This document shows, in pieces, positions 51,778 to 55,019 of a stretch of 64,000 nt of DNA. The stretch's first letter is position 1, and each line of letters begins with the position of its first letter. The notes below the pieces were generated by a model. The model ran no database searches. It had not been told where the DNA came from and was given only the letters and a program-made list of their open reading frames with translations. The stretch covers positions 372,001 through 436,000 of the forward strand of contig NZ_JAUTAJ010000004.1 of the NCBI RefSeq assembly GCF_030818485.1, read 5' to 3'. The translations under genes and the position numbers were made by a program. The DNA is from Pseudoroseomonas cervicalis. Its GTDB lineage: Bacteria > Pseudomonadota > Alphaproteobacteria > Acetobacterales > Acetobacteraceae.

Positions 51778-51899
51778 GGGCGGCGCTTTTCGGGTTGGGG
51801 GAGGCGCCAAACTGCGGCACGCTCCGGTCAAGACATCACGCCAGCAACGGCGCGGAACCGGCCAAGGTTGCGCCGCATCGCAGCGGAAGGGGGAAGCCG

Positions 51900-54293
51900 A
51901 TGAACGCCACGCCCGACAAGCGCGCGCTGCGCGCCGATCAGGACCCGGCGCTGCGCCTGCGCCTGCTGCGCGCCATCGAGCGCAAGCTGCTCTGGCTTTC
52001 CGCCTGGACCATCCACAATGCCAACCATATCCGCCCCAATCGCGACGGGCTGAAGGTGGGCGGGCACCAGGCCTCCTCCGCCTCGGTCGCCGCCATCATG
52101 ACGGCGCTGTATTTCGACATGCTGAAGCCGGAGGACCGTGTGGCGGTGAAGCCGCATGCCGGCCCGGTCTTCCACGCGGTGAACTACCTGTTCGGCCGGC
52201 AGAGCCGGGAAAAGCTGGCGACGCTGCGCCAGTTCGGCGGCATCCAGCCCTATCCCTCCCGGGTGAAGGATGGCGGGGAGGTGGATTTCTCCACCGGCTC
52301 GGTCGGGCTCGGCGTGGCGCTGACCAGCTTTTCCTCCCTGGTGCAGGATTATGTGCATCTGCAGGGGCTGGCGCCGGAGGGGATGCGGCGCGGCCGGCAT
52401 GTCGCCATCGTGGGCGATGCCGAGCTGGATGAGGGCAATATCTACGAGGCCCTGCTGGAGGGCTGGAAACACGATGTCCGCGATGTCTGGTGGGTGATCG
52501 ACTACAACCGCCAGAGCCTGGACAGCGTCGTGCCCGACCGCCTCTTCGGCCGCATCGAGGGGCTGTTCCGCGACATGGGGTGGAATGTCGTCACCCTGAA
52601 ATATGGCCGCAAGCTGGAGGCCGCCTTCGCCCGCGAGGAGGGCGAGCATCTGCGCCGCTGGATCGATGACTGCCCGAACAGCCTCTATTCGGCGCTGACC
52701 TTCCAGGGCGGCGCCGCCTGGCGCGCCGCGCTGCTGGCCGAGCTGGGCCGCATCCCCGGCATCCGCGCCATCATCGACCCGCTGACCGATGAGGAACTCG
52801 GCGCGCTGATGACCAATCTCGGCGGCCATGACATCGAGACGCTGACCGAAGCCTTCCGCGCCCAGGAGGCGGCGGGCGACCAGCCCACCTGCTTCATCGC
52901 CTACACGGTCAAGGGCATGGGCCTGCCCTTCGCCGGGCACAAGGACAACCATGCCGGGCTGATGACGAAGGAGCAGATGGAGGCCTTCCGCGCCGAGATG
53001 GGCATCCGCCCCGGGCATGAATGGGACCCGTTCGAGGGGCTCGACATCCCCGAGGCCGAGCTGCGCGGCTTCATCGAGAGCGTGCCCTTCGCCCAGCCGC
53101 TGACGCCCGGGGGGCGCTGCCTCTCCGCCCCCGCCGTGCCGGTGCCCGAGCGCCTGCCCGCGCCGCGCCTGCCGCCCAACCGCATGCTCTCCACCCAGGC
53201 CGGCTTCGGCGAGCTGATGGCCGAGATCGGCCGCGGTCATCGCGAGCTGGCGCCGCTGGCCAGCCGCATCGTCACCACCAGCCCCGATGTGACGGTCTCC
53301 ACCAGCCTCGGCCCCTGGGTGAACCGGCGCGGCATCTTCGACCGGCACATGAAGAACGACGTGTTCCGGGATGCCAAGCTGGCTTCCGCCCAGCGCTGGG
53401 GCATGTCGCCCAAGGGCCAGCATGTCGAGCTGGGCATCGCCGAGCAGAATCTGTTTCTCGTTCTCGGCGCGCTGGGGCTCGCCGACCGGCTGCACGGGGC
53501 AAGGCTGCTGCCGGTCGGCACGGTCTACGACCCCTTCGTCAATCGCGGCCTCGATGCGCTGATCTATGCCTGCTACCAGGATGCGCGCTTCCTGCTGGTC
53601 TCCACCCCCTCGGGGCTGACGCTGGCGCCGGAGGGCGGGCAGCACCAGAGCAGCAACACGCCCCTCCTCGGCATCGCCCAGGACCGGCTGGTGGCCTACG
53701 AGCCCGCCCATGCCGATGAGCTGGCCATCCTGCTGCGCCACGCCTTCCACCACATGCAGCAGCCGGAGGGCTCGGCGGTGTGGCTCAGGCTGTCCACCCG
53801 CAGCATCGCCCAGCCCGAGCGCAGCCTGGACCCGCAGGCGGTGATCGAGGGCGGCTACTGGGCCGTCCCGCCCGCCGAGGGCGCCCGCATCGCCATCGCC
53901 TATCAGGGCCCCGTCGCACCCGAGGCCTGGGAAGCCTTTGCCCAGTTGCGGGAGGAGGAGCCGGGGGCGGGGCTGCTGGCCATCACCAGCCCGGACCGGC
54001 TGCATGCCGGCTGGCTGGCCGCCCGCCGCGCGGCGCGGCAGGGGCCGGGGGCGGCGCGCTCGGCCATCGAGCGGCTGCTGGCGCCGCTGGCGCCGGGGGC
54101 GGCCATCGTCTCGGTGCTGGATGGCCACCCGGCGGCGCATGCCTGGATGGGCGCGGTGCGCGGCCAGCGCGTGGTGCCGCTCGGCGTCGACCGCTTCGGC
54201 CAGGCCGGCGACATCCCCGACCTCTACCGCGAATACGGGCTGGATGCGGATGCCATCCTGGATGGCTGCGCCCAGGCCCTGCTGGAGGGGTGA
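51900..54293 (+). CDS. AceE-like homodimeric 2-oxo acid dehydrogenase E1 (transketolase family)
   Basis: A 797-residue thiamine diphosphate enzyme related to AceE, somewhat shorter than the E. coli protein of about 890 residues. The ATG at 51900 follows GGAAGGGGGAAG. Key blocks are SAWTIHNANHIRPNRDGLKVGGHQASSASVA near residues 35-65, DFSTGSVGLG near 128, VAIVGDAELDEGNIYEALLEGWKHDVRDVWWVIDYNRQSLD (the GDxE-N TDP motif, near 163-205), CFIAYTVKGMGLPFAGHKDNHAGLM near 335, and SPKGQHVELGIAEQNLFLVLGALGL near 500. The partner E2 and E3 genes are absent here, so it either serves an E2 encoded elsewhere or acts on another 2-oxo acid, such as 2-oxobutyrate in MdeB-like enzymes. The two Nif11-like genes follow. 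Confidence 0.85.
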   Translation: MNATPDKRALRADQDPALRLRLLRAIERKLLWLSAWTIHNANHIRPNRDGLKVGGHQASSASVAAIMTALYFDMLKPEDRVAVKPHAGPVFHAVNYLFGRQSREKLATLRQFGGIQPYPSRVKDGGEVDFSTGSVGLGVALTSFSSLVQDYVHLQGLAPEGMRRGRHVAIVGDAELDEGNIYEALLEGWKHDVRDVWWVIDYNRQSLDSVVPDRLFGRIEGLFRDMGWNVVTLKYGRKLEAAFAREEGEHLRRWIDDCPNSLYSALTFQGGAAWRAALLAELGRIPGIRAIIDPLTDEELGALMTNLGGHDIETLTEAFRAQEAAGDQPTCFIAYTVKGMGLPFAGHKDNHAGLMTKEQMEAFRAEMGIRPGHEWDPFEGLDIPEAELRGFIESVPFAQPLTPGGRCLSAPAVPVPERLPAPRLPPNRMLSTQAGFGELMAEIGRGHRELAPLASRIVTTSPDVTVSTSLGPWVNRRGIFDRHMKNDVFRDAKLASAQRWGMSPKGQHVELGIAEQNLFLVLGALGLADRLHGARLLPVGTVYDPFVNRGLDALIYACYQDARFLLVSTPSGLTLAPEGGQHQSSNTPLLGIAQDRLVAYEPAHADELAILLRHAFHHMQQPEGSAVWLRLSTRSIAQPERSLDPQAVIEGGYWAVPPAEGARIAIAYQGPVAPEAWEAFAQLREEEPGAGLLAITSPDRLHAGWLAARRAARQGPGAARSAIERLLAPLAPGAAIVSVLDGHPAAHAWMGAVRGQRVVPLGVDRFGQAGDIPDLYREYGLDADAILDGCAQALLEG

Positions 54294-54403
54294 CGGCGCG
54301 CCCGGTTTGAGACGGAAGGGATGGAAAGCGAGATGCGGCGGCCGGGTGCGTGGCGCCGCGCCTGGCTAGGCTGGGTGCCGGATCCCCGCAGCAGGAGGAC
54401 AGC

Positions 54404-54673
54404 ATGCCGCATCCCGAGATCGAGCGCCTGAGGGCCGCCCTGCCGCAGGATGCGGCGCTGCGCGAGCGGCTGCGGGCGGCCGAGACGCCGGCGGCGCTGC
54501 TCGGCGCGCTGGGGGCGGCGGGCTATGCCATCCCCGAGGCGGCGCTGCGCGCGCTGGCCGCCGCCCCCGCCACGCCGGGCGAAATGCCGCTGGCGCAGCT
54601 GGACCAGCTCGCCGGTGGCGGCTGGCTGTGGGACCGGATCCTCGCCACCTTCAACCCACACAAGAATGGCTGA
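54404..54673 (+). CDS. Nif11-like leader peptide / candidate RiPP precursor 1
   Basis: An 89-residue peptide with the start at the ATG at 54404 behind GCAGGAGGAC. Residues 1-70 form a Nif11-like leader: paired helices (EIERLRAALPQDAALRERL; ETPAALLGALGAAGYAIPEAALRALA) with the family AAGYAIP motif at residues 38-44. It then has LDQLAGGG (66-73), a double-glycine cleavage site. The remaining 16 residues (WLWDRILATFNPHKNG) would be the core; they contain no cysteine, so lanthionine or thioether chemistry is unlikely. The next gene encodes a second peptide of the same design, 40 bases downstream. No maturation enzyme or peptidase-containing ABC transporter is visible in the window. Confidence 0.75.
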   Translation: MPHPEIERLRAALPQDAALRERLRAAETPAALLGALGAAGYAIPEAALRALAAAPATPGEMPLAQLDQLAGGGWLWDRILATFNPHKNG

Positions 54674-54713
54674 GCCCGGCCCGGCCGGCCGGCGCAGACA
54701 GGAGGAGCCCCGC

Positions 54714-55019
54714 ATGCATCCCGAAACCGAGCGTCTGCTGGCCGCGCTGCCCGGGCAGCCCGCGCTGCGCGCCGCGCTGGGCGGGCCGGGGCTGGACGCC
54801 ACCGCGCGCCTCTCCGCCGCCGCCGCGGCCGGCTACGCCATCCCGCCCGAGGCGCTGCCGGCGCTGGAGGCGGCGCTGGCCGCCGCCGAGGGGAAGGCCG
54901 GAGGGAGGGCCGGGGGGAAGGGCAGCCAGGAGCGCAGCCACGAACTCGGCGACGCCGCGCTGGACCAGGTGCAGGGCGGCCATTGGCCGGTGCGCAACCT
55001 CAACTCGCCCTTCGACTGA
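54714..55019 (+). CDS. Nif11-like leader peptide / candidate RiPP precursor 2
   Basis: A 101-residue peptide starting at the ATG at 54714 behind AGGAGGAG. It shares with peptide 1 the opening HPETERLLAALPGQPALR, the AAGYAIP motif (residues 38-44) and a LDQVQGG cleavage site (83-89). It has an inserted low-complexity glycine/lysine linker (GKAGGRAGGKG, about 60-70). The predicted core is 12 residues (HWPVRNLNSPFD), unrelated to the core of peptide 1 apart from an aromatic after the glycines. The common leader with differing cores is typical of RiPP precursor families. The convergent aminotransferase gene ends 20 bases away. Confidence 0.72.
   Translation: MHPETERLLAALPGQPALRAALGGPGLDATARLSAAAAAGYAIPPEALPALEAALAAAEGKAGGRAGGKGSQERSHELGDAALDQVQGGHWPVRNLNSPFD

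Follow-up and report, generated by a model that had tools for sequence, protein, structure and literature searches.

The window analysed here, a 64,000-nucleotide stretch of Pseudoroseomonas cervicalis DNA, contains two small tandem genes whose neighbours encode an AceE-like E1 and a class I/II aminotransferase. Each specifies a Nif11-like double-glycine precursor; the two leaders are similar, the cores unrelated (Table 1). Much of the original prediction can be read directly in the sequence: the genes lie 40 bases apart, AAGYAIP occupies residues 38–44 in both, neither core contains cysteine, and the neighbours are as described. The leader ends, given as LDQ-x-x-GG, read LDQLAGG and LDQVQGG. 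Gene 2 has the expected core of 12 residues; that of gene 1, put at 16 by counting from the third G, becomes 17 if the cut falls after the first GG.

Table 1. Features of the gene pair and its upstream region (window coordinates).
Feature	Position	Strand	Description
Promoter direct repeat 1	54309..54314	+	GAGACG
Promoter direct repeat 2	54330..54335	+	GAGATG, 21 bp past repeat 1
-10-like element	54365..54373	+	GCTAGGCTG; 29 bp past repeat 2, without TTGAC-like -35 consensus between
Ribosome-binding-site-like sequence, gene 1	54393..54398	+	AGGAGG
Gene 1 (ORF1)	54404..54673	+	89 aa
Gene 1 leader	54404..54619	+	72 aa, Nif11-like, LDQLAGG end
Gene 1 core	54620..54670	+	17 aa, GWLWDRILATFNPHKNG; cleavage presumed after first GG
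Gene 2 (ORF2)	54714..55019	+	101 aa
Gene 2 leader	54714..54980	+	89 aa, G/K/R-rich insert, LDQVQGG end
Gene 2 core	54981..55016	+	12 aa, HWPVRNLNSPFD

AGGAGG stands upstream of both genes. No promoter of its own was found for gene 2, which is therefore taken to share the transcript of gene 1; scans for consensus elements along the window stretch returned neither a sigma-70 promoter nor a terminator. The gene 2 core ends in SPF, an ending common to a core from the related genome G015 and present as SPY in a core from G005. The upstream AceE-like gene (51795–54293) reaches 175 bits, where the aceE cut-off is 860, and its relatives come from Acetobacteraceae and other Alphaproteobacteria; one locus titled Mycobacterium sp. 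KBS0706 (L110) has this alphaproteobacterial gene and is probably mislabelled.

The proposed Nif11 relationship is supported; as for a significant match to public Nif11 models, gene 1 alone has one by E-value, and neither gene has one at the curated cut-offs. Gene 1 matches NCBIfam TIGR03798 with E = 1.6e-6 and gene 2 with E = 0.11, and their scores (28.3 and 12.8 bits) fall below the curated cut-off of 32.3; against Pfam Nif11, gene 1 reaches 22.4 bits (cut-off 23.8) and gene 2 has no match. With a profile made from 11 leaders found elsewhere in the genome, the window pair being excluded, the two genes take the top two places among the 744 ORFs of the window (E = 4.6e-14 and 9.6e-10; the next best has 0.31), so their assignment to the family is not a matter of chance. 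A search of 5.8 billion proteins with gene 1 as the query recovered gene 1 alone at E ≤ 0.001. In the genome as a whole TIGR03798 gives 14 matches at E ≤ 10, two of them chance, and none of the 14 exceeds the curated cut-off; two loci, L013 and L014, were rejected as false Nif11 matches. The layout characteristic of Nif11 precursors, a leader ending in GG (or GA) followed by a divergent core, is present. The system is filed as one that works like N11P/NHLM while standing outside formal TIGR03798 membership.

The pair belongs to a larger set. Thirteen Nif11 precursors with GG or GA after an LD motif lie at nine loci on C4, the largest contig: the window pair, four genes clustered at 2.979 Mb, and seven that stand alone. 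At E ≤ 0.001 the leader profile finds these 13 plus two matches with no clear GG site (C4 361335 and 2978756). The former (L009; L155 in a relative) is a Nif11 gene that is conserved to its end. Two further candidates with short leaders ending LDG(V/I)A(A)GG, at C5:10208 and C2:240568, are weak by profile (E = 0.028 and 0.047). Precursor genes sit singly amid ordinary genes; gene calls reveal no repeated partner beside them and, at the sites seen, no evident dedicated immunity gene. Two own sites (L021 and L211) have a large neighbour that we take to be kinase-like.

The 43 cores that were collected, leaving aside a distant cysteine-rich match (P0017, E = 2.3e-4) and one G015 core (L194), have a median length of 20 residues (range 8–48), and cysteine occurs in a single one. 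Twenty hand-picked cores show an amphipathic tendency (combined p 3e-5); the same number of chosen cores carry net charges of -4 to +2, and typical cationic antimicrobial cores were rejected on that basis. Among the matches listed, NCBI names two P. cervicalis relatives 'Nif11-like leader peptide family natural product precursor' and two others 'toxin-antitoxin system protein'.

Leaders and cores have diverged differently. Sites were matched between genomes by flanking DNA (79–95% identity over the longest pieces): A, B, D and E between G005 and G015, and C between our genome (G000) and G003; own sites A and B were matched in the same manner to G005 and G012. Site A is flanked by lpxB and a gene for a dipeptide-type ABC ATPase, site B adjoins a 5′-nucleotidase-like gene, and these sites hold one to five precursor-like genes. 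Across six flank-matched pairs leaders are conserved, whereas cores are replaced in three and kept in three. At A1 (G005/G015) the leader is identical at 65 of 70 positions (dN 0.04) and the core at 3 of 11 (dN 0.65); at E, leader and core dN are 0.11 and 1.61, and at C (G000/G003) 0.11 and 0.64, core dN being rough throughout at such short lengths. The cores kept between G005 and G015 (D, A2 and B) have dN 0.04–0.14. The predicted pattern of a common leader with a variable core is thus supported among related genomes, and uniform conservation of the C-termini across species is not what is seen.

A further comparison, pair F (G000/G003), gave a leader dN of 0.23 and a core dN of 2.30. The view of site F as one place in the two genomes was rejected: similarity is confined to some 230 bp that hold the leader and does not extend to the flanks, and the pair was therefore compared by leader similarity alone. 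This ∼230-bp leader block occurs at unrelated places (L020 and L199) and ends at about the core start, as though the leader had travelled independently. Certain cores turn up again behind another leader. Own genes B8 and B12 have 15 of 20 aligned core residues in common and 38 of 69 in their leaders, and the G012 A2 core resembles P0016.

A promoter-like arrangement links most of the set. It consists of direct repeats, GAGACR-N15-GAGAYG, with a 21-bp period, followed after a gap of 28–30 bp by GCTAGGCTG; no TTGAC-like -35 consensus lies between repeats and -10. Like the tandem repeats of blp/com-type promoters, which are also about two helical turns apart, these precede a -10 element, here at several scattered units. 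The arrangement, spotted by eye in upstream stretches and tested afterwards, precedes the window pair, seven of the 11 precursor units in all, and an exporter operon on contig C3. A matrix from 12 seeds was run over 548,028 bases (274,014 bp of own precursor and exporter loci plus the window, both strands): eight matches scored above 20, all before precursor units or the exporter, and the best other match reached 16.4. Three of the eight (L023, L024 and L021) had no part in the seed set; at L023, 280 bases separate the site from the called start downstream. At 199 other gene starts one score passes 20, itself before a precursor, and the remaining 198 reach at most 11.2. Left-out seeds score 13.4–38.7. 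Four of the 11 units are without a clear promoter: L020, L211 and the C5 unit have none, and L022 scores 11.7.

The weakest part of the promoter evidence is its link to the exporter. The own exporter site, when left out of the matrix, is the lowest of the seeds at 13.4, inside the background tail. With the own exporter kept among the seeds, those of the relatives score 20.4 (G005), 16.9 (G015), 21.2 (G003) and 16.6 (G012), and a stray match in the relatives' exporter loci reaches 17.6, above G015 and G012.

A sequence model from 24 promoter sites was searched against 17 genomes, scoring the best 150 candidates per genome. It matched at least 10 of the 17 at E ≤ 0.05 and gave at least 25 matches at E ≤ 0.001; of 25 such matches, 24 fall in five genomes with precursor arrays (22 being training sites) and one in G004. 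The G004 match, before a 460-aa gene without peptide features, was put down to chance, and five weak matches (own C2:228692, two in G003 and two in G005) have no GG peptide gene downstream. Both non-training matches of the array genomes (G005 and G015) mark the same place, adjacent to icd, whose identity was confirmed; weaker matches occur there in G000 and G003 (19.0 and 19.7 bits). No GG gene follows at this place (L263, L264, L268 and L269). The conserved sequence there is short and non-coding, in two cases includes a hairpin resembling a terminator, and is possibly a small RNA; Rfam returned nothing there, and one match with E = 0.17 elsewhere in L268.

A double-glycine processing system, on which the prediction depended, is present in the genome. 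The window itself, as predicted, contains no C39 transporter; an exporter preceded by a version of the same promoter lies on another contig. The C39 peptidase family has four matches genome-wide. The NHLM-type operon on C3 starts with a Nif11-like gene, followed by HlyD, a C39-ABC protein (ABC1) and ABC2, with bit scores that all exceed the NCBIfam cut-offs (276/156, 929/853 and 801/709, respectively). The C39-ABC protein and four relatives have C39 motifs: ECGAACL, NHFVVL and NDP can be read in the sequence, and we take ECGAACL, HFVVL and NDP to be the motifs of the catalytic Cys, His and Asp. C4 carries a further pair of NHLM-like operons, in which HlyD exceeds its cut-off and both ABC genes fall short of theirs; other GG proteins adjoin them. 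The C39-matching gene on C2 is a type I exporter whose called frame is without the C39 Cys motif.

The first gene of the C3 operon (L029:6664-6975; L187–L190 in relatives) has no NCBIfam match at E ≤ 0.01. Its C-terminus is conserved, and G003 and G012 have lost the GG; the product may thus be no precursor and instead an accessory of the exporter.

Other proteins were observed near exporters. At L027 and L195 an NHLM-like exporter lies beside helical-looking proteins of 140–168 aa and a protein of 670–731 aa beginning LPEDVLRRI(V/I)GG. Repeat proteins with very short leaders ending VTGG or VVGG (L192:8163-9648 and L193:3679-5079), presumably RTX-like, adjoin NHLM-type exporters, and a 1697-aa protein of TTQIAxL-type repeats (L030:9000-14093) lies near a type I exporter.

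The prediction had also placed no maturase or C39 transporter in the window. Genome-wide searches agree for C39, LanC-like, YcaO and SPASM, none of which has a match there; radical SAM enzymes were covered as SPASM. In the whole genome (95% complete), LanC-like (PF05147), YcaO (PF02624) and SPASM (PF13186), the three families of the maturase search, have no match at E ≤ 0.001, and they are positive in 1, 5 and 8 of 14 control genomes, respectively. The enzymes of class II lanthipeptides (a LanM-type synthetase), of TOMMs (YcaO) and of SPASM maturation thus have no match. This genome-wide result makes the lanthipeptide, YcaO and SPASM routes to a RiPP unlikely, and an unmodified product is the simpler reading; the proposed 'uncharacterised RiPP class' finds no support so far.

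Among 17 genus genomes, our own included, the leader profile matches nine at E ≤ 0.001. After reading of the sequences, real arrays are found in five (G000, G003, G005, G012 and G015). G010 has one truncated precursor gene, and matches in G002, G009, G012 and G014 were rejected as false Nif11, to which we give the name methyltransferase-like. Two G003 array genes run into undetermined bases, and in this assembly such bases are often at or beside precursor sites. TIGR03796 is over cut-off in six of the 17, the five array genomes plus G008, whose exporter operon shows no Nif11 gene. A Nif11-like gene, HlyD and ABC1 follow one another near glycerol kinase in all five array genomes (NCBIfam-confirmed in each), and in the other four, too, the operon is of the C3 type. 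G000, G005 and G015 have the whole operon. In G012 a contig end truncates ABC2, as do undetermined bases in G003, whose assembly has HlyD in two frames. On a tree of the AceE-like protein the five genomes need one change, with weak support (29/70). Since they possibly form one clade, the co-occurrence of arrays and exporter is not independent evidence, and a single gain could explain it.

Beyond the genus, with the best 23 candidates per genome scored, the leader profile is positive at E ≤ 1e-5 in at least four of 249 family genomes; at least two of the 249 that lie outside the genus (G190 and G243) have one match each, and the G243 match has a leader resembling own L022 with a different core. 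The idea that the locus is old and conserved was rejected, as the 12,841 ORFs of 80 AceE-like loci include no Nif11 member (E ≤ 0.01); of these loci L055 cannot be read past the gene and several stop shortly behind it, and a positive control was run for the search. Within 1.5 kb after the AceE-like gene, none of the 15 other genus members readable there (G003 is not) has a Nif11 gene, and varying other genes occupy the place.

What the sequence shows (the precursors, an exporter carrying C39 motifs, the shared promoter, three maturase families without a match, and conserved leaders with cores that are in part replaced) would fit a system in which scattered genes, mostly under common control, encode peptides that are probably unmodified and that a single NHLM exporter cleaves and exports in trans. 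We regard this explanation as likely, and with similar confidence see the window genes as one unit of such a system. A common putative activator would bind the direct repeat and drive the window pair and most other precursor units; the exporter operon, on another contig, would respond through a weaker site. The C39 domain of the NHLM transporter on C3 would recognise the leaders of the scattered precursors, above all their last 12–13 residues (L..xxLDxVxGG), and cut after Gly-Gly, the core presumably leaving as a linear unmodified peptide. Recognition of Nif11-type leaders by the C39 protease LahT150 has been placed, in the available text of that study, in the last 13 leader residues (PMC6363468); LDQLAGG and LDQVQGG lie within this stretch. 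Several observations weigh against the explanation: the two further NHLM-like exporters could serve instead, four of 11 units and the own exporter are without a convincing promoter, half of the matched cores are kept rather than variable, and the promoter model also picks the possible small RNA.

As to function, antagonistic, bacteriocin-like peptides are the most likely role, a guess from knowledge of the family that is nearly balanced and leans slightly towards doubt; the lack of an evident immunity gene beside the precursors speaks against a classical bacteriocin. Short cores with a median of 20 residues could also be pheromones like ComC or BlpC under an autoinduced promoter. The direct-repeat and -10 arrangement resembles BlpR promoters (PMC4739728, available text) and some core motifs recur, as in the SPF/SPY ends, but there are many different peptides for one receptor and gene calls show no sensor kinase conserved at the sites, despite the kinase-like neighbours at two of them; we think signalling unlikely. 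Biofilm or surface proteins appear equally improbable: GG-motif proteins and a C39 exporter do serve biofilm in Synechococcus elongatus, where EbfG1-4 are exported by PteB (PMC4997328, available text), and the picked cores tend to be amphipathic, yet most cores are much shorter than mature EbfG (6–7 kDa) and some are replaced between sister species.

An undescribed RiPP class, with peptides modified by an ATP-grasp, HEXXH, non-SPASM radical SAM or methyltransferase enzyme, is in our judgement quite unlikely. Published Nif11 precursors are mostly reported with modifying enzymes (PMC2887384, in the text available), the maturase search covered three families, and such an enzyme might act on aromatic cores like GWLWD; against this, gene calls show no repeated candidate enzyme beside precursor sites or exporter, and cysteine is nearly absent from the cores. 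That these are proteins which stay in the cell is very improbable. Such a role would suit C4:361335, conserved to its end without GG, and the exporter-linked Nif11 gene, conserved with GG lost in two genomes, but the window pair and 11 other genes end in LDxVxGG or GA and continue into mostly unrelated tails.

The peptides of the blp system are unmodified GG peptides. It is conceivable, if doubtful, that a Gram-negative counterpart of blp/com exists here, in which a peptide-responsive regulator acting at a repeat of 21-bp period would turn on plain GG peptides encoded across the genome, their NHLM exporter and a small RNA, with cores exchanged between Roseomonas species and Nif11 leaders used without a modifying enzyme. 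Nif11 leaders are usually read as a sign of modified peptides, whereas here a dispersed set is found without a LanC-like, YcaO or SPASM match. This set is tied together by its promoter and, more weakly, by its exporter, which makes it testable whether Nif11/NHLM also serves plain peptides. The promoter motif offers a way to find orphan precursors with no neighbouring biosynthetic gene, and could open a Gram-negative peptide regulon of the blp/com type to study.

What is new is the combination of Nif11 leaders, scattered layout, C39/NHLM exporter and repeat promoter; each part is known. The literature search gave, among the matches listed, no paper on such arrays in Roseomonas, and in the available text of an Acetobacteraceae cluster survey (PMC8776678) the word Nif11 is absent by count. 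Going by the available text of the papers cited, Nif11/N11P precursors with an NHLM exporter have been known since Haft 2010, tied mainly to TOMM or LanM enzymes (PMC2887384). N11P (TIGR03798) with NHLM (TIGR03794/03796/03797) resembles our system in its Nif11-type leader, Gly-Gly, large paralogous sets and three-gene exporter family; here, in contrast, there is no LanC-like, YcaO or SPASM match, cores are nearly free of cysteine, scores lie under the TIGR03798 cut-off, the host is of the Roseomonas group, and a direct-repeat promoter is shared. The prochlorosins (ProcA/SyncA, PMC10783134) likewise combine scattered precursor genes, similar Nif11 leaders, hypervariable cores and machinery in trans, but here no LanM-type synthetase is matched, cysteines are almost lacking, and exporter and promoter are what is common. 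The EbfG1-4/PteB system of S. elongatus (PMC4997328) also secretes GG-motif proteins through a C39 exporter, though from one operon, as larger proteins, in a cyanobacterium and with a demonstrated biofilm role. In pneumococcal blp promoters tandem direct repeats accompany an extended -10 element, and the same promoter also drives a peptide gene located away from the main blp cluster (PMC4739728); our system has this architecture in a Gram-negative host, with a Nif11 leader, an NHLM exporter and another repeat sequence.
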